Shown in pieces: positions 4,169-32,459 of a DNA stretch of 38,353 nt. Position 1 is the stretch's first letter. The number at the start of each line of letters is the position of its first letter. A program made the position numbers and the translations under genes. This DNA is from Candidatus Propionivibrio aalborgensis (lineage in GTDB: Bacteria; Pseudomonadota; Gammaproteobacteria; Burkholderiales; Rhodocyclaceae). A model generated the notes under the pieces. It made no database searches. It was given only the letters and a program-made list of their open reading frames with translations, and was not told the origin of the DNA. Location: contig NZ_FLQY01000101.1 in NCBI RefSeq assembly GCF_900089945.1, forward strand, positions 1 to 38,353. Direction: 5' to 3'.

Positions 4169-4190
4169 CCTACGCAATCTGACGTATTCC
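4169..4190. promoter_or_regulatory. Shared 22-bp motif upstream of urtA
   Basis: CCTACGCAAT, three bases (CTG), then ACGTATTCC. The same block with a different three-base centre (TCA) occurs at 9797-9818 before urtB. It contains the dyad TACG-N8-CGTA and also reads as two direct repeats, ACGCAAT and ACGTATT, ten bases apart. It ends 70 bp before the urtA ATG. It is probably the binding site of a shared urea or nitrogen regulator; the regulator is not known. Confidence 0.6.
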
Positions 4191-4259: not shown

Positions 4260-5531
4260 ATGAGTAATCGTCGCAATTTCATCAAGGCAACCGCCCTGTC
4301 AGTAGGTCTGGCCTCCGCCGGCCTGCTTTCATTCGCGGCCAATGCTGCCGACACAATCAAAGTCGGCGTACTTCATTCCCTGTCGGGCACCATGGCCATT
4401 TCGGAAACCGCGCTGAAAGAAACCGCGCTGATGACCATCGCCGAAATCAACAAGGCGGGTGGTGTCATGGGTAAACAACTGGAGCCGGTGGTCGTTGATC
4501 CGGCGTCCAACTGGCCGCTGTTTGCTGAGAAGGCGCGCCAACTGCTGACACAGGACAAAGTGGCCGTAACCTTCGGTTGCTGGACGTCGGTGTCGCGCAA
4601 ATCGGTCAATCCGGTGTTCAAGGAACTCAACGGGCTGCTCTTCTACCCGGTGCAATACGAAGGCGAAGAGCTTGAGAAGAACGTGTTCTACACGGGAGCT
4701 GCGCCTAACCAGCAAGCGATTCCGGCCGTCGAATATCTGATGAGCAAGGATGGCGGCGAAGCCAAGCGATTTGTGCTGCTCGGTACGGACTACGTTTATC
4801 CGCGTACCACCAACAAGATCCTGCGCGCCTTCCTGCACAGCAAAGGCGTGACCGATGCCGACATCATGGAAGAATATACCCCGTTCGGCCATTCCGACTA
4901 TCAGACCATCATTGCCAAGATCAAGAAGTTCTCGTCAGAAGGCAAGAAGACCGCCGTGGTATCCACCATCAACGGCGATTCCAACGTGCCGTTCTATAAA
5001 GAGCTGGGTAACGCCGGTTTGAAGGCAACCGATGTGCCGGTGGTAGCCTTCTCGGTGGGTGAAGAAGAACTGCGCGGCGTCGATGCCAAGCCGCTGGTCG
5101 GTCACCTGGCTGCATGGAACTACTTCATGTCGCTGAAGAACCCGGCGAATGCCAAGTTCGTCAAGATGTACAAGGACTGGGCGGTCAAGAACAAGCTGCC
5201 GAACGCCAGCACGGTCGTGACCAATGACCCGATGGAAGCCACCTACGTCGGCATCCACATGTGGGCGCAAGCGGTTGAGAAGGCCAAGTCGACCGATGTC
5301 GACAAAGTCATCGCAGCCATGGGCGGCCAGACTTTTGCAGCTCCGGACGGCTTCACGATCAAGATGGACGAGAAGAACCACCATCTGTGGAAGCCGGTAT
5401 TCATCGGCGAAATCAAGGCTGACGGCCAATTCAACGTGGTCTGGAAGACACCCGGCCCGGTTCGTGCTCAGCCATGGAGCCCCTTCATTCCGGGTAACGA
5501 CAAGAAGAAAGAGGTGCCGGAAGGAATGTAA
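4260..5531 (+). CDS. urtA: Urea ABC transporter substrate-binding protein UrtA
   Basis: A 423-residue periplasmic binding protein of the amide/urea branch of the branched-chain amino acid type (PBP type 1). It captures urea and delivers it to UrtBC in the inner membrane. The N-terminus carries a twin-arginine-like signal (NRRNFIK at 3-9) and a hydrophobic stretch ending AANA, with cleavage probably near residue 29. The mature part starts TIKVGVLHSLSGTMA, typical of UrtA, and includes FGCWTSVSRKSV and YPVQYEGEE, which are characteristic of the urea-binding clade. AGGAG lies about 8 bp before the ATG. In most genomes urtBCDE follow directly; here a strong terminator and four unrelated genes come between. 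The 22-bp motif at 4169-4190 probably controls it. Confidence 0.95.
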   Translation: MSNRRNFIKATALSVGLASAGLLSFAANAADTIKVGVLHSLSGTMAISETALKETALMTIAEINKAGGVMGKQLEPVVVDPASNWPLFAEKARQLLTQDKVAVTFGCWTSVSRKSVNPVFKELNGLLFYPVQYEGEELEKNVFYTGAAPNQQAIPAVEYLMSKDGGEAKRFVLLGTDYVYPRTTNKILRAFLHSKGVTDADIMEEYTPFGHSDYQTIIAKIKKFSSEGKKTAVVSTINGDSNVPFYKELGNAGLKATDVPVVAFSVGEEELRGVDAKPLVGHLAAWNYFMSLKNPANAKFVKMYKDWAVKNKLPNASTVVTNDPMEATYVGIHMWAQAVEKAKSTDVDKVIAAMGGQTFAAPDGFTIKMDEKNHHLWKPVFIGEIKADGQFNVVWKTPGPVRAQPWSPFIPGNDKKKEVPEGM

Positions 5532-8046: not shown

Positions 8047-8069
8047 GTGTTGAATCGGAAATTGCAGTG

Positions 8070-8075
8070 TATAAT
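8070..8075 (+). promoter_or_regulatory. Consensus -10 box of the TetR gene
   Basis: A perfect TATAAT at 8070-8075 is preceded by GTGTTG at 8047-8052 as a poor -35 with 17-bp spacing. Transcription would start about 8082, almost exactly at the first in-frame ATG (8083), suggesting a leaderless or very short-leader message. Confidence 0.4.
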
Positions 8076-8082
8076 TTGGTCT

Positions 8083-9796: not shown

Positions 9797-9818
9797 CCTA
9801 CGCAATTCAACGTATTCC
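9797..9818. promoter_or_regulatory. Shared 22-bp motif upstream of urtB
   Basis: CCTACGCAAT, three bases (TCA), then ACGTATTCC: 19 of 22 bases are identical to the motif at 4169-4190 before urtA. It ends 61 bp before the urtB ATG at 9879, almost the same distance as at urtA. This suggests a separate, co-regulated promoter for urtBCDE-ure. Confidence 0.6.
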
Positions 9819-9878
9819 TCCATTCCGCCGTGGTCCTTAACCTGTCAGAGACCTGTACGAATTGTGAGTTTCCTTTTG

Positions 9879-11465
9879 ATGAACAAGCTTTTCACCCTTT
9901 TTACCTTTTGCCTGCTCTATGCCTGCAGCCCGTTGGCGCATGCCGCGCTTGATCCGGCCTTGGTTCGCCAATTGGCGGCCGAGGATTCGAGCGAAAAGGT
10001 AAGCGCCATCCGGCAGATTACGCAGAATGCCGACGACGATGCAGTGCGCGTTCTCCAGGCGATGGCTGACGATCAACTCTTCTTGAGTGCTGATACGGTC
10101 GTTGTCTTCGATGGTGAAAATGCCTTTGACGCGGCCAGCGGTGAGCCGATCAAGACTCCCAAGCAACCCGAGTCAATCATCGTGAACAACCGGATTCGCG
10201 GCGAACTGGCCAATGCGTTGGCGGCGCTCAGTCTTTTCAACAAGGACGTTAGCATCCGCCTTGCTTCTGCGCAGGAGCTGCAAACGAGGGTCAGTCCCGA
10301 CATCGTTCCTGTGCTAGCCCTCGCTTTGTCCAAGGAAACCAACGGCGAGGTCAAGGCGCTGCTCAAGCTGGCGCACGCTCAAGCCAACCTTGGCAATGCC
10401 GATCCGGCGGCGCGACTGGCGGCCGTCAGGGCACTCTCGGACGCCTCGTCGCCAGTCGTCAGGAGCGCGCTTCTGCCGCTCACCGACAAAGCGAAGGAAC
10501 CGGACAACAGGGTGCGTTTCGCAGCCATTTCCGCCGTCAAGTCCATCTCTGGCCGACTGGAACTGACCGAGAATCTGGGCCGGATATTTTCCGGGCTGTC
10601 GCTCGGTAGCATCCTGCTGCTTGCCGCCCTCGGCCTGGCAATCACTTACGGCGTGATGGGCGTCATCAACATGGCGCACGGCGAACTACTGATGGTCGGC
10701 GCCTATTCCGCCTATGCCGTGCAGAGTGTTTTTCGCAGCTATTTTCCGGACGCCATCGACTGGTATCTGCCGGCCGCCATTCCTGTCGCCTTCTTCGCCG
10801 CGGCGCTGATCGGCGTCGTCATGGAGCGCACCGTCATCCGCTGGTTGTACGGTCGTGCGCTGGAAACCCTGCTTGCCACCTGGGGCCTGTCGCTGGTGCT
10901 GATCCAGGCCGCGCGCGTGATTTTCGGTGCGCAGAACGTCGAAGTCTCCAACCCGAGCTGGATGTCCGGCGGCGTTGAGCTGATACCCAGCCTGATCTTG
11001 CCGTGGAACCGCATCATCATCATCGGTTTCGCGCTATTCGTGTTGCTGCTGGTCTGGGTGCTGATGAACAAGACGCGGCTCGGCATGTTCGTTCGTGCCG
11101 TGACGCAGAACCGATCCATGGCCGGCTGCGTCGGCGTGCCGACGGCACGCATCGACACCATGGCCTTCGCTCTCGGCGCCGGCATCGCCGGCCTTGGCGG
11201 CCTCGCGTTGTCACAGATTTCCAACGTCGGGCCGGACATGGGCAGTGGCTACATCGTCGATTCCTTCATGGTCGTCGTCGTCGGCGGCGTCGGGCAGTTG
11301 GCCGGCGCGGTATGGGCGGCACTGGGCCTGGGGATTTTCACAAAGCTCCTTGAAGGCTGGGCAGGTGCAGTGATCGCCAAGATTGCTGTTCTCGTTTTCA
11401 TTATTATCTTTATTCAAAAGCGACCGCAGGGCATCTTCGCCCTCAAGGGCCGTGTCGTCGAATGA
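9879..11465 (+). CDS. urtB: Urea ABC transporter permease UrtB
   Basis: A 528-residue inner-membrane permease of the LivH type that pairs with UrtC to form the urea channel. An N-terminal signal-like segment (about 1-23, ending AHA) leads into a periplasmic region of about 200 residues with helical, HEAT-like character, usual for proteobacterial UrtB. The permease core begins near LGSILLLAALGLAITYG and contains GVMGVINMAHGELLMVGAY, the hallmark of LivH/UrtB. ATG 9879 is preferred over the GTG at 9864 because it begins directly with the signal peptide; neither has a strong ribosome site. The stop overlaps urtC as ATGA. It heads the probable urtBCDE-ureDABCEFG operon and has its own copy of the motif seen before urtA. 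Confidence 0.95.
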   Translation: MNKLFTLFTFCLLYACSPLAHAALDPALVRQLAAEDSSEKVSAIRQITQNADDDAVRVLQAMADDQLFLSADTVVVFDGENAFDAASGEPIKTPKQPESIIVNNRIRGELANALAALSLFNKDVSIRLASAQELQTRVSPDIVPVLALALSKETNGEVKALLKLAHAQANLGNADPAARLAAVRALSDASSPVVRSALLPLTDKAKEPDNRVRFAAISAVKSISGRLELTENLGRIFSGLSLGSILLLAALGLAITYGVMGVINMAHGELLMVGAYSAYAVQSVFRSYFPDAIDWYLPAAIPVAFFAAALIGVVMERTVIRWLYGRALETLLATWGLSLVLIQAARVIFGAQNVEVSNPSWMSGGVELIPSLILPWNRIIIIGFALFVLLLVWVLMNKTRLGMFVRAVTQNRSMAGCVGVPTARIDTMAFALGAGIAGLGGLALSQISNVGPDMGSGYIVDSFMVVVVGGVGQLAGAVWAALGLGIFTKLLEGWAGAVIAKIAVLVFIIIFIQKRPQGIFALKGRVVE

Positions 11466-12586
11466 GCGCCATCATGCACAAGTCATTCACCCTGCGCGTT
11501 CTCCAGTCGCTGAATCGCAGAAGCTGGCTGGCGCTGGGATTCTTTCTTGTCGTCACGCTGGTCGCGGTGCCGCTGCTCCATCTTCTGGTTCCGCCCGAGA
11601 GCGCTTTCCACGTTTCGACCTACGCTATCACCTTGTGCGGCAAGATTATGTGCTACGCCATTGTGGCCGTCGCCATGGACCTGATCTGGGGCTATGGCGG
11701 CATTCTGTCGTTGGGCCACGGCCTCTTCTTCGCTCTCGGGGGTTACGCTTTCGGCATGTACCTGATGCGCCAGATCGGGCGCGATGGCAGCTACCAGAGC
11801 GACCTGCCGGATTTCATGGTGTTCCTCGACTGGAAGGAACTGCCCTGGTACTGGAGCGGCAGCGACAATCTCTTGTGGGTGGGCTTCCTGGTCATTGCCG
11901 TGCCGGCCATTGTTGCCTTCATTTTCGGCTATTTCGCCTTCCGTTCGCGCATCAAGGGTGTCTATTTTTCGATCATCACGCAGGCGCTGACGTATGCGGC
12001 CATGCTGCTTTTCTTCCGCAACGAAACCGGTTTCGGCGGCAATAACGGCTTCACCGATTTCAAGCGCATCCTCGGCTACAGCATCACTTCGCCGGATATG
12101 CGCTTGGTGCTGTTCGGGCTGACTGCGCTGGTGCTGGCGCTGACGCTGGTGTTCGCGGGCTGGCTGGTGACCTCGAAGTTCGGCCGCGTGCTGACCGCGA
12201 TTCGCGACGCCGAGTCGCGCGTCATGTTCATCGGCTACAACCCGCTGTGGTACAAGGTATTCATCTGGGTTATTTCGGCGATCCTGTGCGGCATCGCCGG
12301 TGCGCTCTATGTACCGCAGGTGGGGATCATCAACCCATCGGAAATGAGCACCGGCAACTCGATCGAAATCGCCATCTGGGTTGCCGTCGGTGGCCGCGGA
12401 ACGCTGATCGGCCCGGTCATCGGCGCCTTCGTGGTAAATCTTGCGAAGAGCTGGTTTACGGTTTCCTTCCCCGAATACTGGCTGTTCTTCCTCGGCCTGC
12501 TGTTTATCGTCGTTACGCTATTGCTGCCGCAAGGCCTGGTCGGACTCTGGAAAACACTGCGGCAATCCCGTGGAGCACGGGTATGA
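11462..12586 (+). CDS. urtC: Urea ABC transporter permease UrtC
   Basis: A 374-residue LivM-type inner-membrane permease, the second channel subunit for urea import. Multiple membrane spans are visible, with the family landmarks DLIWGYGGILSLGHGLFFALG and, later, FRSRIKGVYFSIITQAL and NNGFTDFKRILGY. Late in the protein AVGGRGTLIGPVIGA matches the conserved EAA-like region that contacts the ATPases. The start ATG overlaps the urtB stop (ATGA), and its own stop overlaps the urtD start (ATGA), so UrtB, UrtC and UrtD are translationally coupled, as expected for subunits needed in fixed proportion. Confidence 0.95.
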   Translation: MSAIMHKSFTLRVLQSLNRRSWLALGFFLVVTLVAVPLLHLLVPPESAFHVSTYAITLCGKIMCYAIVAVAMDLIWGYGGILSLGHGLFFALGGYAFGMYLMRQIGRDGSYQSDLPDFMVFLDWKELPWYWSGSDNLLWVGFLVIAVPAIVAFIFGYFAFRSRIKGVYFSIITQALTYAAMLLFFRNETGFGGNNGFTDFKRILGYSITSPDMRLVLFGLTALVLALTLVFAGWLVTSKFGRVLTAIRDAESRVMFIGYNPLWYKVFIWVISAILCGIAGALYVPQVGIINPSEMSTGNSIEIAIWVAVGGRGTLIGPVIGAFVVNLAKSWFTVSFPEYWLFFLGLLFIVVTLLLPQGLVGLWKTLRQSRGARV

Positions 12587-13422
12587 GGGAGTTCTTCCGC
12601 AAGGTCATCGGTATCGATCCGGAACAATGCGCCCCCGAGTATCGAGCGGGTTACGCCGGCAAGCAGAAAACACTCGACCTCTCGCACAACGTCATCCTCT
12701 ACCTGGAGGACATCAGCGTCAGCTTTGATGGCTTCAAGGCGCTCAACAATCTCAACATGGCCATCGACGTTGGGGAGCTGCGCTGTATCATCGGTCCGAA
12801 CGGCGCGGGGAAGACAACGATGATGGATGTCATCACCGGCAAGACGCGCCCCGATTCGGGAACGGCATTCTTCGGCCAGAGCATCGACCTGACGCGCCTG
12901 ACCGAGCCGGAAATCGCCCACGCCGGGATCGGCCGCAAGTTTCAGAAGCCGACGATTTTCCAGCAGCACAGCGTCTTCGAGAATCTCGAACTGGCGATGA
13001 AGATCGACAAGCGCGTGCGCCGCAGTCTGTTCGCCTGGCTGCGCGACGACGAGCGCGACCACATTTCCGATATCCTGCGCCAGATCCGCCTCGACACCGA
13101 GGCCGACCGGCCCGCCGGGCTGCTGTCGCACGGCCAGAAGCAGTGGCTGGAAATCGGCATGCTGCTGGTGCAGGAGCCGCAGCTGTTGCTGCTCGACGAG
13201 CCTGTCGCTGGCATGACCGACGACGAAACCATGCGCACCGCCGAACTCTTCGTGTCGCTTGCCGGCAAGCATTCGCTCGTTGTTGTCGAACACGACATGG
13301 CGTTTATCAAGGAGCTTGGCGGCCTGGTCACCGTGCTGCATGAGGGCTCGGTCCTGGCCGAAGGCGATCTGGATAGCGTCCAGAATGACGATCGGGTGAT
13401 CGAGGTTTATCTGGGGCGGTGA
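12583..13422 (+). CDS. urtD: Urea ABC transporter ATPase UrtD
   Basis: A 279-residue LivG-type ATPase on the cytoplasmic face of the urea transporter. Walker A is GPNGAGKTT (71-79), the ABC signature is LSHGQKQ (181-187, an SHGQ variant normal for UrtD) and Walker B is LLLLDEP (201-207). HGQKQWLEIGMLL is the UrtD form of the family pattern. The first about 35 residues (MREFFRKVIGIDPEQCAP) form an extension before the ATPase core. The ATG at 12583 overlaps the urtC stop; the frame is open further upstream but only as a shadow of urtC. A 91-bp gap separates it from urtE. Confidence 0.95.
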   Translation: MREFFRKVIGIDPEQCAPEYRAGYAGKQKTLDLSHNVILYLEDISVSFDGFKALNNLNMAIDVGELRCIIGPNGAGKTTMMDVITGKTRPDSGTAFFGQSIDLTRLTEPEIAHAGIGRKFQKPTIFQQHSVFENLELAMKIDKRVRRSLFAWLRDDERDHISDILRQIRLDTEADRPAGLLSHGQKQWLEIGMLLVQEPQLLLLDEPVAGMTDDETMRTAELFVSLAGKHSLVVVEHDMAFIKELGGLVTVLHEGSVLAEGDLDSVQNDDRVIEVYLGR

Positions 13423-13513: not shown

Positions 13514-14287
13514 ATGCTAAGAGTCAGCAACCTCAATCAGTTCTACGGCGGCAGCCATATCCTGCGCGATCTCAGCTTCGATGTTCCCAAGGGACAGGTG
13601 ACCTCACTGCTCGGCCGCAACGGCGTTGGCAAAACGACCTTGATGAAATGCCTGATGGGCCTGATCCCCGCCAAGAGCGGAACGATGGAGTTCAGTGGTC
13701 GCGATATTACGACATCAGCACCGCATACGCGGGTGAGCATGGGCATTGGCTACGTCCCGCAAGGCCGGGAAATCTTCTCCCTGCTGACCGTCGAGGAGAA
13801 CCTGTTGATGGGACTGGCCTCGCAACCGCGCGGCAGCAGGATTCCGGACCTGGTGTTCGACCTCTTTCCGGTACTCAAGAGCATGCTTAGACGCCGCGGC
13901 GGCGATCTCTCGGGCGGTCAGCAGCAGCAACTGGCGATTGGCCGCGCGCTGGCCATGAACCCGAAAATCCTGATGCTCGACGAACCGACCGAAGGCATCC
14001 AGCCGTCGATCATCAAGGATATCGGCAAAGCCATCCGCATTGTCGCTCAGCGCCAGAAGCTGGAAACGAGCGCCAGCAAATCAGCCGAAGAACGCGAAGA
14101 GGTCAAGAACGCCATTCGCAGAGTCGCCGATACCGGCGAAGTGGCCATCCTGCTGGTCGAGCAGTATTACGATTTCGCCCGCGACCTGGCCGACCACTAC
14201 CTGCTCATGGAGCGCGGTGAATTCATCATGCGCGGCCTCGGCTTCAACATGGACACGGATGGTGTGCGTGAGGCCCTGGCTGTGTGA
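13514..14287 (+). CDS. urtE: Urea ABC transporter ATPase UrtE
   Basis: A 257-residue LivF-type ATPase, the second nucleotide-binding subunit. Walker A is GRNGVGKTT (34-42), the signature LSGGQ is at 132-136 and Walker B is ILMLDEP (152-158), followed by TEGIQPSIIKDIG. The C-terminal AILLVEQYYDFA is diagnostic of UrtE. Most UrtE proteins are about 230 residues; the excess here is a charged insertion at about 178-204 (KLETSASKSAEEREEVKNA) between the helix after Walker B and the H-loop strand. The start has GAGG about 9 bp upstream. The stop overlaps a GTG that opens ureD, coupling transport to urease genes. Confidence 0.95.
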   Translation: MLRVSNLNQFYGGSHILRDLSFDVPKGQVTSLLGRNGVGKTTLMKCLMGLIPAKSGTMEFSGRDITTSAPHTRVSMGIGYVPQGREIFSLLTVEENLLMGLASQPRGSRIPDLVFDLFPVLKSMLRRRGGDLSGGQQQQLAIGRALAMNPKILMLDEPTEGIQPSIIKDIGKAIRIVAQRQKLETSASKSAEEREEVKNAIRRVADTGEVAILLVEQYYDFARDLADHYLLMERGEFIMRGLGFNMDTDGVREALAV

Positions 14288-15186
14288 TTGGTAGTATCCT
14301 TGGCGACATGATCCCGCTCGACCGAACCCTGCAACACCTGCCCAACTGGGAAGCCGAACTGGCGCTTGAGTTCGAATGCCGCGACCGGGCGACCTGCCTT
14401 GCCGGTCGCCGCCACCGCGGTCCGTTGCGGGTGCAGAAGGCTCTGTATCCGGAAGGTGGCGAGGTGTGTCAGGCGATACTTCTGCACCCGCCGTCAGGAA
14501 TCGCCGGCGGCGACCAGCTACGCATCAGCGCGAGCGTCGGCGCGCATGCGCATGCACAGATCACCACCCCCGGTGCCGGCAAATGGTATCGCTCGGGTGG
14601 CGCCGAAGCGTCGCAGACCCTAGATTTCAAACTGGCAACCGGCGCCACGCTGGAATGGCTGCCGCAGGAAACCATCGTCTTCGACGGCGCCAGCGCCAGC
14701 ATTCGGACGCACGTCGAACTGGCTGCCGACAGTCGCTATCTCGGCTGGGACATCCTCTGCCTCGGTCGCTATGCCGCTGGCGAGCGATTCGCCACCGGAA
14801 GTATCGGGCTGCACACCCGGATCGAACGCAACGGCCAGCCGCTCTGGCTGGAACGCGGCCAGATCGCCGGTGATGACGCCATGCTGCAAAGCGTCGCCGG
14901 CTGGGCCGGAGCCACGGTCTGCGGGACATTGCTGGCGACGCTGCCGACTGGCGACGAGGCGGCAGACATGGGAATAATGAACACTACGCTACTCGCTGCC
15001 TGTCGTGCGATCCGGCCAGTTGACGGTGCGGAGCATGGCGTCACCGCACTGCCCGGCCTGCTCGTCGCTCGCTATCTCGGTCAGCGCAGCGAGGCGGCAC
15101 GGCAGTGGTTTGCCGCACTATGGCACGAGCTGCGTCCGGTTCTTCTAGGCAGGACCGCGGTATCGCCGCGCATCTGGAACACTTGA
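14284..15186 (+). CDS. ureD: Urease accessory protein UreD
   Basis: A 300-residue urease chaperone (UreD/UreH) that binds apo-urease and, with UreF and UreG, delivers nickel to the UreC active site in the cytoplasm. Diagnostic stretches are [40 protein letters not shown] and [13 protein letters not shown]. The GTG at 14284 overlaps the urtE stop as GTGA; the ATG at 14308 is an alternative, and both keep the domain intact. It is the first urease gene, in the common betaproteobacterial order ureDABCEFG. No hupE/ureJ nickel transporter is included. Confidence 0.95.
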
Positions 15187-15202: not shown

Positions 15203-15505
15203 ATGGAACTCACTCCCCGCGAGAAAGACAAGTTGCTGATCTTCACCGCCGGCCTTCTCGCCGAGCGACGCAAGGCCCGAGGGCTGCAACTCAACTATCC
15301 GGAAGCGGTCGCGCTGATCAGTTGCGCGATCATGGAGGGCGCCCGTGACGGTCGCAGCGTCGCCGAATTGATGAGCGAAGGAACGCACATTCTGGCGCGC
15401 CATGAGGTGATGGAAGGCGTCCCGGAAATGATCCCCGAAATTCAGGTTGAGGCGACCTTCCCGGACGGCACCAAACTGGTCACTGTCCACAACCCTATCG
15501 TTTGA
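15203..15505 (+). CDS. ureA: Urease gamma subunit UreA
   Basis: A 100-residue structural subunit, full length for the family, starting [18 protein letters not shown]. It assembles with UreB and UreC into the trimer of trimers that hydrolyses urea to ammonia and carbamate. The conserved [12 protein letters not shown] and [20 protein letters not shown] are present. AGGAGG lies about 7 bp before the ATG, the strongest ribosome site of the urease operon, as expected for a structural subunit made in quantity. It lies 16 bp after ureD. Confidence 0.96.
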
Positions 15506-15518
15506 GAGGTGCATCGCG

Positions 15519-15820
15519 ATGATTCCAGGTGAATTGCTGATTGCCGCAGGCGAACTCGAACTCAACGCCGGTCGCGAGCGGATCGAACTGACCGTCGACA
15601 ATACTGGCGACCGTCCGATTCAGGTCGGTTCGCATTACCACTTTTTCGAAACCAATGCGGCGCTCGCTTTCGAGCGCGACAAGGCGCGCGGCTTCCGGCT
15701 CGATATTGCCGCCGGCACCGCGGTGCGCTTCGAGCCGGGGCAACGACGCACCGTGCAGCTTGTCGCCCTGGCTGGTGAGCGAAAGGTGTACGGTTTTCGT
15801 GGCCTGATTCAGGGGGCGCT

Positions 15821-15824
<4 letters not shown>
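15519..15824 (+). CDS. ureB: Urease beta subunit UreB
   Basis: A 101-residue structural subunit starting [19 protein letters not shown], with the conserved [16 protein letters not shown] and [16 protein letters not shown]. It stabilises the alpha subunit and helps shape the flap region of the active site. The ATG at 15519 lies 13 bp after ureA with GAGAGG ahead of it; the longer open frame upstream is not supported. Its stop overlaps the ureC ATG as ATGA. Confidence 0.96.
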
Positions 15825-17539
<1,715 letters not shown>

Positions 17540-17553: not shown

Positions 17554-18078
17554 ATGCTGATCCTCAACCGCAGAAGCGACCGCCCCGCCAGCGACAGCGT
17601 TTCGCTGGACTATGACGAACGCAAGCGCAGTCGTCTCAAAGTCACCCTGGCTTCCGGCCAGGACGCAGGCATCTTCCTTGAACGCGGCGAGCACTTGCAC
17701 GGCGGCGACAAACTGGCGGCAGAAGATGAAAGTGCCGTAGTTGAAATTCACGCCGCGCCTGAAGCGCTGATCGAAGCCGTCGCCACGTCACCGCTGCTCT
17801 TCGCCCGCGCTGCCTACCACCTGGGAAACCGGCATGTCGCAGTGCAGATCGTTGCAGAGCCGGGTGGCGGCCGCCTGCGTTTCCAGGCCGACCACGTTCT
17901 GGCAGAAATGGTGCGTGGCTTGGGGTGTGCCGTCAGCGAAACGACAGCCCCCTTCGAACCGGAGTCCGGCGCCTACAGCGGGCAACACCATCATGCAGGC
18001 GGACCGAACGCACCGCACGACCCTGGGCACGGCCCGCACCGCGCCGTGCCAAAAATCCATCAGTTCAGATCGCATTGA
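17554..18078 (+). CDS. ureE: Urease nickel metallochaperone UreE
   Basis: A 174-residue nickel-binding chaperone that hands Ni(II) to the UreG/UreF/UreD complex. The N-terminal peptide-binding domain runs to about residue 75 and the metal-binding domain includes AAYHLGNRHVAVQI, where the second His (NRH) corresponds to the conserved nickel ligand of the dimer interface. The C-terminal tail is rich in histidine (GQHHHAGG, HDPGHGPH), a nickel store found in many UreE proteins. The ribosome site is weak. The stop overlaps the probable TTG start of ureF. Confidence 0.94.
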   Translation: MLILNRRSDRPASDSVSLDYDERKRSRLKVTLASGQDAGIFLERGEHLHGGDKLAAEDESAVVEIHAAPEALIEAVATSPLLFARAAYHLGNRHVAVQIVAEPGGGRLRFQADHVLAEMVRGLGCAVSETTAPFEPESGAYSGQHHHAGGPNAPHDPGHGPHRAVPKIHQFRSH

Positions 18079-18764
18079 GCCTCGACGCGCTGCCTCTGAT
18101 TCGCCTGTTGCAACTGGCCAGCCCCGCTTTGCCGGTCGGCGCCTTTTCCTATTCGCAGGGACTCGAATGGGCGGTGGAAAGCGGTCGCATCAGCGACGAG
18201 GCCGGCGCCGGACAATGGATCGGCGATCTGCTCAGCGGCGCCATCGGTCGCTTTGAAGCGCCGCTGCTGTTCTGCCTGATGTCGGCGTGGTCGACGAACG
18301 ATGCGGCCGAAATTTTCCGCTTGAACGCCGACTTTCTGGCCAGCCGCGAAGGCGCCGAGTTGCGCGCCGAAACTCTTCAGATGGGGTTTTCGCTCAACCG
18401 TCTGCTGGCCGATCTGCGCGACCCAACGCTTAGCGGTGTACAAGCAACCCTGACATCGTTGCCCGAGATTTCCTTCCCCGTCGCCTGGACTGGTATTGCC
18501 GCTGCCTGGAACATCGATGCGCAAGCGGCCTGCGCCGCCTATCTGTGGTCCTGGGCCGAAAACCAGGTGATGGCCGCGCTGAAAGCCGTGCCGCTCGGCC
18601 AGGCTGCCGGCCAGCGGCTGCTTGCCGAACTCGGATCAAAAATCCCCGCCGTTGTTCGTGGCGCGCAAAACCTGCCGCCAGCGGCGTGGTCCAACTTCAC
18701 GCCGGCCTATGCCATCTGTAATGTCCGCCACGAAACACAGTATTCACGTCTTTTTCGGTCTTGA
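18075..18764 (+). CDS. ureF: Urease accessory protein UreF
   Basis: A 229-residue all-helical protein that bridges UreD and UreG during nickel delivery and gates GTP hydrolysis by UreG. The N-terminal landmark LLQLASPALPVGAFSYSQG is present, as are SWAENQVMAALKAVPLGQ and the C-terminal YAICNVRHETQYSRLFRS. No ATG fits the expected N-terminus. The TTG at 18075 overlaps the ureE stop (TTGA) and gives the normal length; the 150 bp of open frame before it overlap ureE and are unlike UreF. ureG begins 7 bp downstream. Confidence 0.92.
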   Translation: MSLDALPLIRLLQLASPALPVGAFSYSQGLEWAVESGRISDEAGAGQWIGDLLSGAIGRFEAPLLFCLMSAWSTNDAAEIFRLNADFLASREGAELRAETLQMGFSLNRLLADLRDPTLSGVQATLTSLPEISFPVAWTGIAAAWNIDAQAACAAYLWSWAENQVMAALKAVPLGQAAGQRLLAELGSKIPAVVRGAQNLPPAAWSNFTPAYAICNVRHETQYSRLFRS

Positions 18765-18770: not shown

Positions 18771-19412
18771 ATGAACACGCTCAATTCAAATTCCGCATCC
18801 ACAACTCACAACGCTCCCCTGCGCGTCGGCATCGGCGGTCCCGTCGGCTCCGGCAAGACCGCATTGACCCTGGCGCTGTGCCGGGCTTTGCGCGAACAGA
18901 TTGAAATGGCGGTGGTGACCAACGACATCTACACCGCCGAAGACGCCAAGTTCCTCGTCGACCATGCCGCGCTGGAGCCAACGCGAATCATCGGCGTCGA
19001 GACCGGCGGCTGCCCACATACGGCCATCCGCGAGGACGCCTCGATCAATCTGGAAGCCATTGACCGCCTGCAACGGACTTTTCCGCAGGTGCAACTGATC
19101 CTGGTCGAATCGGGCGGCGACAACCTCGCCGCGACGTTTTCGCCCGAACTTTCGGACCTGACGCTGTACGTCATCGATGTCGCCGCCGGTGAAAAAATCC
19201 CGCGCAAGGGCGGTCCGGGAATCACCAAGTCGGATTTGCTGATCATCAACAAAATCGATCTGGCTCCGATGGTTGGTGCGTCGCTCGACGTCATGGCGCG
19301 TGACGCCAGGACGCAACGCGGCGAGCGGCCCTTTGTCTTTACTAACCTCAAGACAGGAGAGGGTCTCGAACCGGTCATCGCCTTCATTCGTGAGCGTGGA
19401 ATGCTGATCTGA
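18771..19412 (+). CDS. ureG: Urease accessory GTPase UreG
   Basis: A 213-residue SIMIBI-class GTPase that couples GTP hydrolysis to nickel insertion into urease. The P-loop GPVGSGKT is at 23-30, the nickel-binding Cys-Pro-His at 81-83 (GGCPHTAI), the switch region is [17 protein letters not shown], and the guanine-specificity motif is NKID. The family is usually about 205 residues; the first 16 residues here are a short polar extension. It is the last gene of the urt-ure operon; no obvious terminator hairpin was found in the 79 bp before the next gene. Confidence 0.97.
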
Positions 19413-20776: not shown

Positions 20777-21712
20777 TCAGCTTCCCCGGATCTTGCCGAT
20801 CGCCAGATTGGCCGCCGCGGTGCGGGTCTCCACGCCGAGTTTTTCGAAAACGTGCTCCAGGTGTTTGTTCACCGTCCGTGGACTGCTGCCGAGTATGTCG
20901 CCGATGTCCTTGCTGGTCTTGCCCAGCGTTACCCAATAGAGCACCTCTGCTTCACGTTGAGTGAGCCGGAAAGCGGCGATCAGGGAATCGATGGCGGTGG
21001 CATCATTTTCTTCGCGCAGGACGACCAGCCACTCCTGGTCACCCGTCTGGTCGTGGAAGGAGGCGAGCAGTCGCCGTCTGTCTTCAGCGAGTAGCAGTGC
21101 GGCTGGCTCTCGCCCGTCGCGACGGGCGGACTCGGCGTCGGCGATCCAGGCCAGTAGGCGCTGCGGCGTTTGTTCTTCCCCGGTGGAGAAATAGTCCTTG
21201 AGCAGTTTTCTGGCCAGGGGCGTCTGCCAGACCAGCTTGCCGTCGGCGGCACGAATGGCCACCGTAGCCTGGCCGAAGGCATCCAGGGCCGTTCGGGCCT
21301 GCTTTATCTGGTGGGCGTTCTGCATGTGAGCGGCGATGCGGGCCAGCACTTCGGCGGCGCGTATGGGCTTGGTAACGTAGTCGGCACCGCCGGCCGCAAA
21401 GGCAGCCACGACGTGTTCCGTTTCGGTCAGGCCGGTCATGAAAACAATCGGAATATGCTGGGTGGCGAAATCGGCTTTCAGGCGTCGCGCAACTTCGAAG
21501 CCGTCCATGCCCGGCATCATGGCATCGAGCAGAATGACGTGCGGCAGGCTTTGGCGCGCCCGTTGAAGGGCGGATTCGCCATTGGTCGCGACGAGTACGG
21601 TGTAGCCCGATTCGTCGAGGGCGTCGTGCAGGAAGGAGAGGTTCTCCGGGATATCGTCCACGATCAGAACGATATCGGAGATGGTGCGGTCAAGTGGAGG
21701 GTCATTCAACAT
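20777..21712 (-). CDS. Response regulator, receiver plus LuxR-type DNA-binding domain
   Basis: A 311-residue two-component regulator. The receiver (about 12-130) has the acidic pocket VDD at 18-20, phospho-acceptor Asp63 (LLDAMMPGMDG), the conserved Thr in FMTGLTE and Lys in VTKPI. A middle segment (about 140-240, starting AFGQATVAIRAADGKLVW) looks like a degenerate PAS domain. The C-terminal LuxR/NarL helix-turn-helix (about 245-305) contains LTQREAEVLYWVTLGKTSKD. Its start overlaps the end of the permease-kinase gene by 11 bp, so the two are co-expressed and it is surely the cognate output. The REC-PAS-LuxR order is less common than the simple NarL layout. Targets are unknown; the urea genes next door are candidates. 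Confidence 0.92.
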   Translation of the reverse strand: MLNDPPLDRTISDIVLIVDDIPENLSFLHDALDESGYTVLVATNGESALQRARQSLPHVILLDAMMPGMDGFEVARRLKADFATQHIPIVFMTGLTETEHVVAAFAAGGADYVTKPIRAAEVLARIAAHMQNAHQIKQARTALDAFGQATVAIRAADGKLVWQTPLARKLLKDYFSTGEEQTPQRLLAWIADAESARRDGREPAALLLAEDRRRLLASFHDQTGDQEWLVVLREENDATAIDSLIAAFRLTQREAEVLYWVTLGKTSKDIGDILGSSPRTVNKHLEHVFEKLGVETRTAAANLAIGKIRGS

Positions 21713-24700
21713 CGCGTCCCTTTCCGAGAATTTCCTTCATGGCGTCGAACTGGAACTGACGGGCCAGATCGCGCAGGACACGCACAAACTCGCCGTGCGC
21801 AGGATCAAGTCGCTCGATTTCACCAAGTTTGTTCAGTATGCCGCGAACATACCCGAGGCCGACCAGTTCGTCGAGAGCCGAAAGATGCTCTTGTCCGGGC
21901 GGGATCAGTTGGGCTGGCTTGGGCACGACACGGGCTGGAGGGATGACCGGCGATTCGGTGCTGACCCACTCCAGTGACAACTTGCGGCCGATCCAGTCGA
22001 GCAGTTCATCGACACGCAGCGGTTTGACGATGAAGTCGTGGTTGCCGATGCCGGCATCGTTTTCAAGACCCCTGTCAAAGGCGTTTGCCGAGATGATGGC
22101 GATATGGGCATCTGTAAGATTCTGCTGGCGAATACGCCGGATGGTCTCCCAGCCGTCGATGCCGGGCATGGCCAGATCCATGAACACCAGATGCGGGGCG
22201 AAGCGGGGCAGCACTTGCAGGCATTCATGCCCGCTGGCCGCCTGTTCAACCTGGAAACCCAGAGGGTCAAGGACACTCTGCAGCATGTCGCGATCGACCT
22301 TCTCGTTATCGACCACCAGAATACGGCGACGAATACCGACATAACCGATCCGGTTGGTTCGTGGCAGATCGTGCTCCGCCTGCGCCGAGTGTACCTGAGG
22401 CAGGAACAGTCGGATGCGGAAGCTGCTGCCTTCACCCGGTATGCTGCTGACGGTCATTTCGCCGCCCATCAGGTCGGTCAGCATCCGCGCAATGGTCAGT
22501 CCGACACCGCTTCCGCCAGCCTGCGTTTGGCTACCACGGACAAAAGGCTCAAAAATACGTTCCAGATCTTCCGGTGGAATGCCAGGGCCGCTATCGCGGA
22601 TATCGAAGATGGCCATTTCGCGCCTGCATTCGACGCGGAAATTGACGCCGCCATGCACCGTGAATTTGACGGCGTTGCCGAGGACGTTGATCAGGATTTG
22701 CTGAAGCCGTCGCTGATCAACCCGCACGACGCCGGGGAGTTCGCCGACAGGTTCGTAACTGAAGCTCAAGCCCTTGTTGCGAGCCTGCAACTCGAACATG
22801 CCGACGATCTGTTGCAGGAACTCCGGGAAGTCCAGCGCCTTGACTTCCAGTGTCAGTTTGCCGCCTTCGATTCGGGCGATATCGAGCGTGCCTTCGATCA
22901 CCGACAGTAAATGGTCGCCGCTCTTCCTGATCACGCCGACCGCTTGCCGGCGGTGTGCCGGGATGGCCTCGTCGCCGGCGAGAATTTGCGCGTAACCCAA
23001 AATACTGTTGAGGGGCGTGCGCAACTCGTGGCTGATCGCAGTGATATAGCGGCTCTTGGCCTGATTTGCCTGGTCCGCCGCCAGCTTGGCCTTCTGCAAT
23101 TGCTCATCGGTGCGCTGGTGTGAGTCGATTTCCTGCAGCAGCAGACGTGTCTGCCGGTTCGATTCCTCCTGCGCGACCTGTCGGCTCTTGTGGGTCAGAA
23201 CCATCCACCAGGCGCCAACGCCGGCGAAGAGAAGCAATGCCGAAAAGGCTTTGATGAAGGTCTGTTGCAGGTGCGGAATCAATTCAGAGGCTTCCGGGCC
23301 GAGCGCCAGCGTTTCGTGCGTGTAAAGCAGACCGAGCAGGCCAGCAAGCAGGGGGACGATGCACACCATCAGCAGCAGATAATGGCCCAGTCCGGTTTCA
23401 AGATAGGGAATCGCCGCTGCGGGCAGGATTCGACGCAGCGTGCCGTTCCATTGAGCTGCGAGATTGGCGCCCGGTTTGCACAGATCATCACAGCGCGCAT
23501 CGAGTGAGCAGCACAGCGAGCAGATCGTGCCACGGTAGGCCGGGCAGTGCGCCGTGTCCTCGCTTTCGTATTCGCGTTCGCAAATGCAGCAACGCTGCAT
23601 GCCGGCGGCGGCAACGGTCTTGTTGGCAACAAGGTAATAGCGGCCACCGGTTATCCAGGCAATCAGAGGTGCGGCGACAAAGGCGGCCGATAGCGCGATG
23701 AAGGAGGCATAGGGCTGCACATCAGGGCCGAGCAGTCCGCTGAACGCTGCGATCGAGAGCAGCGAGGCGAGGCACATGGCGCCGATACCGACCGGGTTGA
23801 TATCGTAGAGATGGCTGCGCTTGAACTCGATATGCGGCGGCGAGAGGCCAAGCGGCTTGTTGATCACGAGGTCGGCGACCACGGCCGCCATCCATGAAAT
23901 GGCGATATTTGAATAGAGGCCGAGGATTTGGCCCAACGCCTGGAAAACATCCAGTTCCATGAGCAGCAAGGCGATCAGAATGTTGAAGACAACCCAGACG
24001 ACGCGTCCGGGATGACTGTGCGTCAAGCGGGCAAAAAAATTCGACCAGGCCAGCGACCCGGCATAGGCATTGGTTACATTGATCTTGAGCTGTGAAATGA
24101 CAACAAAAAGAACGGTTGCTGCTATGGCCAGCGACGTATTGCTGAACACATGGGAAAAGCCGATCAGGTACATCTGGTTCGGATCAACCGCCTTTTCGAC
24201 GGGAACGGCGTTGCGCAAGGCGAGATAGGCGAGCAGGGCGCCGCCGAGCATTTTTGCCACGCCAGGAAGAACCCAGCCGGGGCCCCCGAGCACCAGGGCC
24301 AGCCACCAGCGGTTGCGGTTCTTTGCGGTGCGCTCCGGCATGAAGCGCAGGTAGTCCGCCTGTTCGCCCATTTGCGTGACGAGTGCGATACCGACGGTAA
24401 GTGCTGCGCCAAACAGCGGCATGCTGAATGCGCCGCCCAGTCCCTTTTCCCCTGCGTAGCCTGTCAGCTCGCTCAGGACTTCGGGTTCCTGCCACAGCAG
24501 GAAAGCGTACGGAAGAATCAGCAAGGCCAGCCACAGCGGCTGCGTCCACGCTTGCAGGCGGCTGATGGCGGTGACCCCGTGCGTGACGAGGGGAATGACC
24601 ACCAGTGCGCAGATCAGGTAACCCCACGCCGGGGGAATATGGAAGGCGAGTTCCAGCGCGTAGGCCATGATCGCCGCTTCCAGCGCGAAGAAGATGAAGG

Positions 24701-25106
24701 TGAATGACGCATAGATCAGCGACGTGACGGTCGAGCCGATATAGCCAAAGCCCGCGCCACGTGTCAGCAGGTCCATGTCCAGCCCGTAGCGAGCAGCGGC
24801 GTGACTGATCGGCAACCCGATCAGGAAAATGATCAGGCCGGTTGCCAGAATGGCCCAGAAGGCGTTTATGAAACCACCATTGACCAGCATGGTCGCGCCC
24901 ACGGCTTCGAGCACCAGAAAGGATGAGGCGCCAAAAGCGGTGTTGGCCACCCGCATTTCCGACCACTTGCGAAAACTGCGCGGTGTGAAACGCAAGGCGT
25001 AATCTTCGAGCGTTTCGTTGGCCACCCAGGTGTTGTAGTCGCGCCGAATCTTTACGACACGCTGCGGGGGCTCCGTGGTAGCTTCTGGCGAGAACGGGCT
25101 GGTCAT
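21702..25106 (-). CDS. NCS1 permease fused to hybrid histidine kinase (transporter-sensor)
   Basis: A 1134-residue inner-membrane protein. Residues 1-500 form a complete NCS1 (cytosine/purine/uracil/allantoin) permease of about twelve spans, starting with the family's WVANETLEDYALRFTPRSFR and including RGAGFGYIGSTVTSLIYASF. Residues 506-543 carry nine cysteines in CCIC, C521, C529, CC532-533, C539 and C543, resembling a zinc or Fe-S motif. Two further spans lie near 570-595 and 617-636. A coiled linker precedes the HisKA helix with His693 (ISHELRTPL). The ATPase domain has the N-box Asn811, DSGPGIP (838-844) and GSGVGL (865-870), and a receiver follows with Asp977 (FMDLAMPG). The last about 90 residues have no recognised domain. 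By analogy with CbrA, where an SLC5 transporter is fused to a kinase, it probably senses or takes up a nitrogen compound. The next gene is its regulator. Confidence 0.93.
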   Translation of the reverse strand: MTSPFSPEATTEPPQRVVKIRRDYNTWVANETLEDYALRFTPRSFRKWSEMRVANTAFGASSFLVLEAVGATMLVNGGFINAFWAILATGLIIFLIGLPISHAAARYGLDMDLLTRGAGFGYIGSTVTSLIYASFTFIFFALEAAIMAYALELAFHIPPAWGYLICALVVIPLVTHGVTAISRLQAWTQPLWLALLILPYAFLLWQEPEVLSELTGYAGEKGLGGAFSMPLFGAALTVGIALVTQMGEQADYLRFMPERTAKNRNRWWLALVLGGPGWVLPGVAKMLGGALLAYLALRNAVPVEKAVDPNQMYLIGFSHVFSNTSLAIAATVLFVVISQLKINVTNAYAGSLAWSNFFARLTHSHPGRVVWVVFNILIALLLMELDVFQALGQILGLYSNIAISWMAAVVADLVINKPLGLSPPHIEFKRSHLYDINPVGIGAMCLASLLSIAAFSGLLGPDVQPYASFIALSAAFVAAPLIAWITGGRYYLVANKTVAAAGMQRCCICEREYESEDTAHCPAYRGTICSLCCSLDARCDDLCKPGANLAAQWNGTLRRILPAAAIPYLETGLGHYLLLMVCIVPLLAGLLGLLYTHETLALGPEASELIPHLQQTFIKAFSALLLFAGVGAWWMVLTHKSRQVAQEESNRQTRLLLQEIDSHQRTDEQLQKAKLAADQANQAKSRYITAISHELRTPLNSILGYAQILAGDEAIPAHRRQAVGVIRKSGDHLLSVIEGTLDIARIEGGKLTLEVKALDFPEFLQQIVGMFELQARNKGLSFSYEPVGELPGVVRVDQRRLQQILINVLGNAVKFTVHGGVNFRVECRREMAIFDIRDSGPGIPPEDLERIFEPFVRGSQTQAGGSGVGLTIARMLTDLMGGEMTVSSIPGEGSSFRIRLFLPQVHSAQAEHDLPRTNRIGYVGIRRRILVVDNEKVDRDMLQSVLDPLGFQVEQAASGHECLQVLPRFAPHLVFMDLAMPGIDGWETIRRIRQQNLTDAHIAIISANAFDRGLENDAGIGNHDFIVKPLRVDELLDWIGRKLSLEWVSTESPVIPPARVVPKPAQLIPPGQEHLSALDELVGLGYVRGILNKLGEIERLDPAHGEFVRVLRDLARQFQFDAMKEILGKGRDVE

Positions 25107-29218: not shown

Positions 29219-29884
29219 TCAGTCGGTTGCTGTGGCTAGGTCGTCCAACCGTCGATGTAGCAGAACCGCTGGCGCTTCAACGCGTTGGCATTGCCGCAAC
29301 TCGCCGATCTGGCGGAAACCCAGCGTACGCTGATAGTAACGGGCATGGCGCGGATTCACTTCGATCACGGCATCGCTGGCCGCGAACATGTCCTTTCCGT
29401 AGTTCCGGGCAACCTGAAACAAAGCGGTCAGCAAGCCCTGCGAGCTGAAATCCGGATCAACAGCCAACCTAGTAACTTCACATACTACCCGGCCAGGTCG
29501 TCGCAAGCTGGCAAGCTCCGGTCCGTAAAGCGAATCCGCCAGCAAGCCATCCGGCGAATCACGACCAAGGGTAAGGGTTGCCACCACTTCGTCGTACTGC
29601 CAAGCGGCAAGAGTTACCCGGTTCGGGTCGTCCGGCCGGAGCCCGACCGCTTCGGTGCTATAACCGCGCCAAGTGTACATTTGCTGTACCAGCATGCTGG
29701 CCATGCCATGCTGGTGTGGGGTTCGTACCGGGCGAATGTTGTAACCACGGCTACGCGGCAGGAGCCCCCAAAGTGGCCGAAGTGACGGGAGCAGTTGATA
29801 GCCCCCATCGAACGGACGCGAAGTCAGCCCATCCAAAGAGAAAGCCATTTCTGGATACAGACTGGCGTTGATGGCGGTTTGCAT
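29219..29884 (-). CDS. FeeM-like N-acyl amino acid synthase / GNAT acyltransferase
   Basis: A 221-residue protein with the GNAT fold of N-acyl amino acid synthases (FeeM) and related autoinducer-synthase-like acyltransferases. Landmarks are MLVQQMYTWRGYSTEAVGL, VTLAAWQYDEVVATLTLGRD, CEVTRLAVDPDF and the late EVNPRHARYYQRTLGFRQ. FeeM makes long-chain N-acyl tyrosines from acyl-ACP; similar proteins occur near exosortase/PEP-CTERM loci. The substrate here is unknown. It lies 32 bp after the bactofilin gene on the same strand, so it probably shares the sigma54 promoter at 30580-30595 and the GlrR-like control. The ribosome site is weak, suggesting coupling to bactofilin translation. Confidence 0.75.
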   Translation of the reverse strand: MQTAINASLYPEMAFSLDGLTSRPFDGGYQLLPSLRPLWGLLPRSRGYNIRPVRTPHQHGMASMLVQQMYTWRGYSTEAVGLRPDDPNRVTLAAWQYDEVVATLTLGRDSPDGLLADSLYGPELASLRRPGRVVCEVTRLAVDPDFSSQGLLTALFQVARNYGKDMFAASDAVIEVNPRHARYYQRTLGFRQIGELRQCQRVEAPAVLLHRRLDDLATATD

Positions 29885-31016: not shown

Positions 31017-32441
31017 ATGATACGAATTTCGTTCCGCCAGAGCATGCTGTCTGGATTCCTGTTAATTACATTGCTGCTCAGCTGGGCTGCGGTGCGAAAC
31101 TGGCTTGAGCTCGAACGCTTTGTCGAACAGAGCCGGCGAGGCAGCGAACTGGCGCTTCAACTTAGTGCCTCGATACGCGAACTCGCGGAGCGGACAGTCG
31201 ATCTTGAACGCAGTTCGCGTCAGTTCATTGTCCTGAACGATTCAGCATTGCTTGGGCGTTTCGATGAGAATGTGGCCCACTCCCTCGTTGTTGTGGAGCG
31301 TTTGGAGTCGACCCCGGGCAGGCCTTTGGGCGAACTCCCCAGAGTCTGGCGTCAGGCGGTCGAACAGCTCAGTCAGAGCCTTCATCAATCAACACCTCAG
31401 CCTGAGCTGGTCCCAGAAGTTGTATCCGTTCTGAACAGGCTTTCGGAGCTGAACGATGAATTGGGACTCAATGCCCGGCGGTGGATCGACGAACGGCATG
31501 CGACGATGCTGGTTGAACTGGAACAGAGCCGCCAGCATCTCACCCGTCTTGTGGCGGCGGCCGTAGCCGGAGCTTTTCTGGTTGCACTGGCGATGAGTTG
31601 GTGGCTTGCCCGACCCGTGGGCCGTCTCGAACGGTCGATCGAGCGTTTGGGCGAGAGCCGATTTGACGAGCCCGTGATGGTTAACGGACCGGATGACCTG
31701 AGGCGAGTGGGGCGCCGCCTGGACTGGCTGAGATTGCGTTTGAGTGATCTTGAATCGGGCCGAGAGCGGACTCTGCGCCACGTCTCGCATGAGTTGAAAA
31801 CGCCACTGACGGCATTGCGCGAAGGCATCGCCCTGTTGCAGGAAGAGGTGGTCGGGCCTCTTGAAGGATCTCAGAAGGAAGTCGTGGATATCCTGCAGGA
31901 CAACGTAATAACGCTTCAGAGAGATATTGAAAGCCTGTTGCGGCTCAATGCCGTTTCCTTTGAGGCGCGTCGCTTATGCTATCGACCGCTGGCTCTTAGG
32001 AAACTGCTGGAGGACGTTGTTCGGGGTCGGGAATTGCAAATTCAGTCGCGCCATCTGAGCGTGCACTGCGAAGCTCCGGCAATAACGCGACAACTCGATG
32101 GTGAGAAATTGCAGGTGGCTCTCGATAATCTTCTCTCGAATGCGATCGATTTCAGTCCTGAAGGAGGTGCTATCCGCCTGGAGGCGGTGCAGACGGACAA
32201 CGGCATTAGCATCGCTTGCATTGACAAAGGGCCGGGCATTGCGGCCGAGGATGCCGAGCGCATCTTTGAGCCATTTGTTCAGGGCGCACGCCCCTCGCCT
32301 GTGCCGCGGAAGGGCAGCGGCGTGGGCTTGTCTATCGTCCGCGAACTGATGACGGCCATGGGCGGGCGGGTGCTGCTGGCGCCCTGCAGCGGTGACGCAG
32401 CCGGAGCAAATTTTCAGATTGAGGTGCCCTGTGAACGGTAG
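31017..32441 (+). CDS. GlrK/QseE-like sensor histidine kinase
   Basis: A 474-residue inner-membrane kinase. A first membrane span (about 9-26), a periplasmic helical sensor region of about 150 residues and a second span (about 177-198) are followed by a HAMP domain (about 199-250), the dimerisation helix with phospho-acceptor His258 (RHVSHELKTPLTAL), and the ATPase domain with NLLSNAIDFSPEGG, DKGPGIAAEDAERIFEPF and GSGVGLSIVREL. AGGG precedes the ATG. The following lipoprotein and sigma54 activator reproduce the glrK-qseG-glrR (qseEGF) order of enterobacteria, where the system answers envelope stress and signals. It should phosphorylate Asp64 of the regulator at 33023. Confidence 0.93.
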   Translation: MIRISFRQSMLSGFLLITLLLSWAAVRNWLELERFVEQSRRGSELALQLSASIRELAERTVDLERSSRQFIVLNDSALLGRFDENVAHSLVVVERLESTPGRPLGELPRVWRQAVEQLSQSLHQSTPQPELVPEVVSVLNRLSELNDELGLNARRWIDERHATMLVELEQSRQHLTRLVAAAVAGAFLVALAMSWWLARPVGRLERSIERLGESRFDEPVMVNGPDDLRRVGRRLDWLRLRLSDLESGRERTLRHVSHELKTPLTALREGIALLQEEVVGPLEGSQKEVVDILQDNVITLQRDIESLLRLNAVSFEARRLCYRPLALRKLLEDVVRGRELQIQSRHLSVHCEAPAITRQLDGEKLQVALDNLLSNAIDFSPEGGAIRLEAVQTDNGISIACIDKGPGIAAEDAERIFEPFVQGARPSPVPRKGSGVGLSIVRELMTAMGGRVLLAPCSGDAAGANFQIEVPCER

Positions 32442-32459
32442 CTTTAAAAAGGTGAATCC

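Follow-up and report, generated by a model that had tools for sequence, protein, structure and literature searches.

A predicted NCS1-fold permease fused to a hybrid histidine kinase, its LuxR-type regulator and an associated palindrome at the urea genes of Candidatus Propionivibrio aalborgensis

Results

In the present study, we analysed a stretch of 38,353 nucleotides from Candidatus Propionivibrio aalborgensis (assembly GCF_900089945.1, contig NZ_FLQY01000101.1, positions 1 to 38,353; the window), in which a gene joining a predicted NCS1-fold permease to a histidine kinase lies beside the urt genes for urea transport and the ure genes for urease (Table 1). An earlier sequence-only reading had described this gene as a single frame that joins a permease and a complete hybrid kinase, and the open reading frame (ORF), the Pfam domains and a predicted structure all agree with it. 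The protein carries the HisKA, HATPase_c and receiver domains of a hybrid histidine kinase with their catalytic residues; His693, Asn811 and Asp977 stand where that reading had placed them, and its GSGVGL motif is present in the translation. Hydropathy and the predicted model give 12 permease helices up to about residue 490, followed by the Cys-rich segment (here 506-543), by the two further spans which had also been described (565-639), and by a long helix running into HisKA. The kinase gene overlaps the regulator gene, again as claimed; the overlap is 11 bp, and the product of the regulator gene has the receiver and the GerE helix-turn-helix (HTH) of a LuxR/NarL-type regulator. In the genome of the window, all 62 other matches to the fusion protein start at residue 607 or later, which means that the permease part occurs only once there.

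Table 1. Positions of the fusion gene, its regulator, the palindromes and the urea genes in the window
Feature	Position	Strand	Basis or remark
NCS1-fold permease / hybrid histidine kinase	21702..25106	-	1134 aa, ATG start, one ORF
NCS1-fold permease part, residues 1-490	23637..25106	-	predicted model, Foldseek, hhalign
Cys-rich segment, residues 503-545	23472..23600	-	8 Cys invariant in 65 aligned rows
Two extra transmembrane spans, residues 565-640	23187..23414	-	hydropathy and predicted model
HisKA with His693, residues 683-749	22860..23060	-	Pfam
HATPase_c with Asn811, residues 797-902	22401..22718	-	Pfam
Response_reg receiver with Asp977, residues 929-1037	21996..22322	-	Pfam
Response regulator, Response_reg + GerE (LuxR-type HTH), 311 aa, presumed partner	20777..21712	-	Pfam
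Palindrome before urtA, predicted regulator site	4171..4186	.	-10-like TACTCT at 4210-4215
Palindrome before urtB, predicted regulator site	9799..9814	.	-10-like TAACCT at 9838-9843
urtA, urea ABC transporter binding protein	4260..5531	+	TIGR03407, 586 bits
urtB	9864..11465	+	TIGR03409
urtC	11462..12586	+	TIGR03408
urtD, part of ORF 12247-13422 matched by the hidden Markov model, start not settled	12694..13422	+	TIGR03411
urtE	13514..14287	+	TIGR03410
ureD	14284..15186	+	PF01774
ureA (gamma)	15203..15505	+	PF00547
ureB (beta)	15519..15824	+	PF00699
ureC (alpha)	15821..17539	+	NF009686/TIGR01792
ureE	17554..18078	+	PF02814 + PF05194
ureF, longest ORF, real start probably later	17925..18764	+	PF01730
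ureG	18771..19412	+	TIGR00101

The structure of residues 1-691 was predicted from an alignment of 65 rows (the window and 63 of 80 homologous loci), with a mean predicted local distance difference test score (pLDDT) of 74.8. The comparison with Mhp1 that the sequence-only reading had proposed placed Mhp1 among the five best PDB matches, which were three Mhp1 entries and two CodB chains (Foldseek, E 2e-9 to 2e-7); all five are NCS1 proteins, their template modelling (TM) scores normalised to the target were 0.65-0.78, and the predicted model has a LeuT-type fold. SLC5-type structures matched less well (E 3e-5 and up), and residues 1-640 gave no Pfam match to an SLC5 transporter domain. Residues 500-640, where a STAC domain might stand, had no Pfam match, though whether the library holds a STAC model was not checked. 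Profile comparison (hhalign) of the permease part with E. coli CodB and AllW gave 94.6% (E 6e-8 for a single comparison), and a DxxR after transmembrane helix 6 is common to the window protein and CodB. In addition, an intermediate sequence of 509 aa (L105) passes PF02133 with 30.2 bits against a cut-off of 23.5. When compared with the window protein alone, as a pair, it aligns at E 2e-13, and within its own genome at 1e-5. A phmmer search of residues 1-504 against PDB chains and hmmsearch of PDB sequences with the 65-row and 16-row profiles gave nothing relevant. Because of the predicted fold, the profile comparison and the intermediate sequence, we assign the permease part to a divergent branch of predicted NCS1-fold proteins.

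The pocket was read from the hhalign alignment with CodB in 69 kinase-fused and 11 kinase-less sequences. In NCS1 carriers the base is sandwiched by two aromatic residues (Trp; Phe/Trp) that are conserved through the family (PMC9379551). In the window protein the first position, Trp in NCS1, is Phe139 (Phe in 75 of the 80 sequences, Leu in 5), and the second, Phe204 of CodB, is Leu242 (Leu in 79, Phe in 1), so that the stacking pair is not kept. The first position is presumably that of Trp117 in Mhp1. Glu143, four residues further on, is placed at Gln121 of Mhp1, a residue named in PMC9379551. It belongs to a polar set that is invariant in all 69 kinases and 11 cousins: Glu143, Trp192, Gln245, Glu248, Gln249, Asp251, Arg254, Gln339, Lys341, Asn343 and Asn346. 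This conservation answers the search for substrate-site residues that the sequence-only reading had suggested. The Na2 hydroxyl pair of transmembrane helix 8, for which Thr278/Thr279 are named in CodB (PMC9379551), is replaced by K341-I342-N343; here the alignment to CodB may be off by one residue, no pair appears in either register, and Lys341 is not claimed as a Na2-site residue. Sodium coupling is not universal among NCS1 carriers (PMC13390362). Since PF02133, the stacking aromatics and the Na2 hydroxyls all fail, the protein is not classed as an ordinary NCS1 nucleobase permease. The label of a nucleobase/allantoin-type permease is not supported, as the aromatic pair is replaced and the neighbours observed are urea, formamide and amide genes.

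The Cys-rich segment had been regarded as a linker. The stretch itself was found, and its eight cysteines suggest a metal site; the segment also occurs, full or reduced, in most of the aligned cousins without a kinase, which makes it part of the transporter family. The Acinetobacter and Klebsiella cousins keep two CxxC pairs only, and some actinobacterial ones fewer. A resemblance to RING domains was not significant (PDB E 8.4; Pfam E 1.1) and was not used.

At least 583 stretches in the genome collection encode relatives of residues 1-640, and the permease region of the fusion is therefore not a product of chance. The best 80 of these loci, from mostly Rhodocyclales and Burkholderiales genera and some metagenome bins, were examined with up to 10 kb on each side. 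A regulator of at least 50% identity was found in 73 of the 80, directly beside the kinase in 70, and in the remaining seven less than 400 bases were left on the contig. Two loci depart from this arrangement: kinase and regulator are 2.6 kb apart in L015 and 6.4 kb apart in L017. Urea genes were seen in 42 of the 80 loci (UreA in 30, UrtA in 20). In a sample of the class, the fusion was present in 15 of 274 genomes, and a sixteenth, G038, has a piece of it at a contig end beside ureEFG; UrtA over the cut-off occurred in 13 of these 16 versus 52 of the 258 others (Fisher 8e-7). In a sample of the phylum Pseudomonadota, 52 of 398 genomes, that of the window included, were taken to have the fusion (a match in a frame of at least 890 aa, counted from the listing), and the 29 best other loci of this sample had divergent FmdD-type genes in 25, adjacent urease genes in 3 and neither in 1.

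Single records show the same company. On pSymB of Sinorhizobium meliloti three small genes lie between the kinase-regulator pair and urtABCDE, which point away from each other, a Methylovirgula record has the order ure, kinase-regulator, urt, a Burkholderia vietnamiensis plasmid record joins an fmd-type operon and a formamidase with the kinase, and two Klebsiella plasmids carry a urt-like operon with formamidase; Klebsiella accounts for 342 of 532 matching plasmid records. The genome survey thus bore out the link to the urea genes that had been proposed, with homologues associated with urea and amide genes.

Eleven stand-alone relatives (L128, L132, L134, L135 and L168 to L174; L175 repeats L168) were examined, ten of them from one plasmid collection, which is a narrow sampling. 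Urease, formamidase or amidase genes neighbour eight: the cousin stands before ureEFGJDABC in Acinetobacter (L134 and L169), 153 bp after ureG in Klebsiella (L168), between kinase and formamidase in L128, divergent from fmdA in L170 and near it in L173, between a regulator and an aliphatic amidase in L172 (Methylovirgula), and directly before an aliphatic amidase in L174 (Arthrobacter). No such neighbour was seen in L135 and L171. The L132 cousin and a kinase fusion are divergent, with about 235 bp separating them, and no urea or fmd query matched the rest of the 21.9 kb of L132. In the Klebsiella pneumoniae records L168 and L175, the gene right after ureG (6956-8563) is labelled 'cytosine permease' and belongs to the family of the window permease; it may be an unrecognised urea permease. 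In the tree the eleven cousins form one set (100/98). The kinase of the window falls in a set of 19 (100/99) that holds the ure- and urt-linked betaproteobacterial kinases and also some without urea genes at the locus, e.g. L012, L032 and L036. L133, outside the 69 and 11 sequences above, was counted as a fusion despite its stand-alone label in the tree, as its record annotates a gene of 3342 bp there, with a response regulator next in order.

On aligning the urtA upstream regions we noticed a palindrome, TACG-N8-CGTA. The window has three exact matches against 0.04 expected, and none of 100 shuffles reached three; two precede urtA and urtB, and the third lies within urtA (4791-4806) and is regarded as a chance match. 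Of the 24 linked loci that form the discovery set, in which a single species accounts for two rows, 21 carry it upstream of urtA (shuffles 0.5%); for fmdD the count is 6 of 7. As a control, 40 genomes were taken from the 52 fusion-free ones with UrtA over the cut-off, and none had it in about 600 bp upstream of urtA, two regions being shortened by contig ends; one region held a palindrome-like copy with spacing 9. Besides 12 fusion-positive genomes of the class sample, a second set of eight was picked from both samples (G107 and G128 belong to both sets). Of the seven genomes of the second set with a classical urtA, six had the palindrome no more than about 250 bp from the start of the match, and in the seventh, G128, it lies about 1.4 kb upstream. 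In G648, G485, G107 and G638 the nearest listed kinase is about 40, 59, 99 and 244 kb from the urtA that bears it. Furthermore, it precedes three of the five fmd-type genes over the cut-off in this set, is missing in G619, which has an fmd-type gene only, and was found before none of 12 weaker, non-urea UrtA relatives fetched from the same genomes. In the phylum sample, 22 of the 29 loci have it within 500 bp upstream of the kinase (shuffles 12/5800). In these comparisons of genomes the occurrence of the palindrome depends on the fusion being in the genome. In the Klebsiella plasmids L136 and L137, a urt-formamidase cluster resembling the one of the CG307 lineage (PMC13060141) comes with both the palindrome and the kinase-regulator pair.

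The best -10-like hexamer begins exactly 23 nt after the palindrome in 18 of the 21 urtA regions, whose rows are related and not independent. In the window it is TAACCT at 23 nt for urtB and TACTCT at 23 nt for urtA, although for urtA the score preferred TTTACT at 21. If these hexamers are real -10 elements, the palindrome is centred near -44. One possible reading of the repeat is a 7-2-7 element, in which 2 bp separate halves of 7 bases each.

Between the two halves of the urea genes, urtA and urtBCDE-ure, stand a gene for an HpaB-like oxygenase and an ORF for a TetR-like regulator (6414-8766), yet the palindrome precedes each half. Elsewhere in the window we found a second, unrelated two-component pair of a HAMP histidine kinase and a sigma-54 type regulator (31017-34429), a FeeM-type N-acyl amino acid synthase (29219-29884; PF21926, 171 bits) and a membrane protein (2708-4111) whose match to COX1 is weak and falls short of the cut-off.

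Discussion

We believe, with a probability of about 0.7, that the fusion protein is a transceptor which binds urea, or small amides in sister clades, and activates the urt-ure genes via its regulator. In the proposed mechanism, the NCS1-fold part would bind urea (formamide or other small amides in the sister clades) in its central polar site, and the Cys-rich segment together with helices 13-14 would relay the bound or alternating state to the coiled helix and on to the kinase (HisKA-HATPase). From there phosphoryl groups would reach the overlapping LuxR-type regulator, a dimer of which would bind TACG-N8-CGTA around -44 in both the urtA and the urtB promoter. The outcome would be that urtA and urtBCDE-ureDABCEFG are switched on, giving high-affinity urea uptake together with urease. 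The regulation of urt-ure by this kinase and regulator is well supported by the comparison of genomes, and the regulator probably binds the palindrome. Activation rather than repression is suggested by the centre near -44 and by a placement like that of NarL, which uses 7-2-7 sites with one centred at -44.5 (PMC7419079), and of CrbR, whose inverted repeat at -52 to -36 is required for activation (PMC5715377). As it lacks the second stacking ring, the polar site would fit a small amide better than a nucleobase, and the sensor may also carry its ligand across the membrane. The receiver domain of the kinase may act as an intermediate, a sink or a regulator. Positions such as 69, 74, 239, 240 and 246 were tried as determinants of urea versus amide; they are not common to the second urea-linked group (L111, L113, L115, L116) and appear to be clade markers rather than shown determinants.

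Several observations weigh against this interpretation. The earlier claim of an intact NCS1 permease of about 500 residues held by fold and profile and needs a correction at the level of domain searches: no Pfam family, including Transp_cyt_pur (PF02133), matches residues 1-504 even at E 10, and an NCBIfam search up to E 10 gave nothing relevant for the permease part. Pfam found no Hpt domain for the phosphoryl route from the hybrid kinase. In 38 of the 80 best loci there is no urea gene in the stretch covered, and 22 of these stretches are longer than 20 kb; one of the 38, L048, has a second kinase beside fmdD. The palindrome occurs in none of the 29 kinase-ureA intergenic regions, which rules out that region as carrier of the site, and it is also absent upstream of the kinase in the window and from the 350-600 bp that precede urtA in L115 and L116, two gammaproteobacterial loci whose kinase is near urtA. 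In the fusion-positive genomes of the class sample it was found in only 4 of 15 urtA upstream regions (12 genomes). Moreover, a gene neighbourhood is no proof of a ligand.

The palindrome could belong to another regulator, with the kinase pair as a simple neighbour; in favour of this, some kinase loci lack it, and in the window it does not stand before the kinase. We regard this as highly improbable, since none of the 40 fusion-free genomes has the site at urtA, yet it stands at distant urtA genes in genomes with the fusion, the regulator gene is the constant partner of the kinase, and a 7-2-7 geometry suits a LuxR/NarL-type dimer (PMC7419079). The permease part could also be a membrane scaffold that reads another partner (the Urt/Fmd ABC transporter, the ammonium status or the membrane) instead of a ligand. 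The kinase accompanies an ABC transporter in many loci, and transporter-coupled kinases exist in general; we nevertheless find this unlikely, because the pocket residues are conserved equally in the kinases and in the kinase-less cousins, and because the 19.9-kb locus of G263, with kinase, cousin and formamidase, has no match to any Urt/Fmd transporter query.

The sequence-only reading had left the choice between a urea precursor and urea itself. A sensor of a heterocyclic precursor (allantoin, hydantoin, uracil or cytosine) would anticipate urea; ring compounds are the substrates of known NCS1 carriers (PMC9379551, PMC13390362), and some kinase-less cousins are annotated as 'allantoin' or 'cytosine permease', though these labels are automatic. 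Such sensing is quite unlikely, because the second stacking aromatic is a leucine in nearly all sequences; the first is Phe or Leu and never Trp, and the genes identified nearby are for urea and amides. No nucleobase or allantoin genes appear in the annotated records examined, though no search aimed at them was made. Of the two options, urea itself, with small amides in the sister clades, is favoured.

A wider proposal, which we hold at even odds, is that one hitherto unrecognised NCS1-fold branch serves urea and short amides, with stand-alone permeases (including the Klebsiella gene after ureG) and kinase-fused transceptors that bind and carry urea and report through a palindrome common to Alpha-, Beta- and Gammaproteobacteria. 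If the transceptor reading is true, it would add a second transporter fold to the transporter-kinase fusions and supply its likely ligand, regulator and DNA site, would account for the control of urea and formamide uptake in many proteobacteria, and would suggest that some 'cytosine' or 'allantoin' permease genes beside urease genes encode urea permeases.

Among the papers listed by searches of the open PMC library, none treats an NCS1-kinase. In one genome paper a urtABCDE operon appears together with a hybrid kinase and a LuxR regulator, purely as annotation (PMC13296017), a Klebsiella preprint treats the urtABC-AmiF cluster without the terms 'histidine kinase' or 'two-component' in its main text (PMC13060141), and one table in a study of nitrogen starvation in M. 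smegmatis contains a formamidase and a putative cytosine permease whose locus numbers directly follow each other (PMC4222082). Transporter-kinase fusions are called rare (PMC13022988), and according to a 2022 abstract no more than two SLC5/STAC kinases had been characterised before the one it describes (PMC9100948).

The closest known layout is that of CbrA of Pseudomonas, which had been named as the model and shares with the window protein a secondary transporter and a kinase in one chain with a regulator partner; CbrA has been called a rare transceptor (PMC13022988, PMC7096432). CbrA, CrbS and RpuS are described as SLC5-STAC kinases. CbrA differs in its SLC5 transporter and its ligand histidine, whereas the window protein has the predicted NCS1 fold, the Cys-rich segment with two helices, and urea and amide genes beside it. 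The acetate system CrbS/CrbR likewise combines a hybrid kinase with a transporter domain, a LuxR-family regulator and an inverted repeat (PMC5715377), and differs in transporter family, linker, DNA motif and substrate. Mhp1 and CodB have the LeuT-type fold predicted for the window protein and are its best structural matches, in contrast to which the window protein is missed by PF02133, lacks the stacking aromatics and the Na2 hydroxyl pair, and is fused to a kinase. Finally, the NCS1 metformin transporter MetT indicates that the NCS1 scaffold can take a linear nitrogen compound without a ring (PMC13390362); MetT is stand-alone and specific for metformin.

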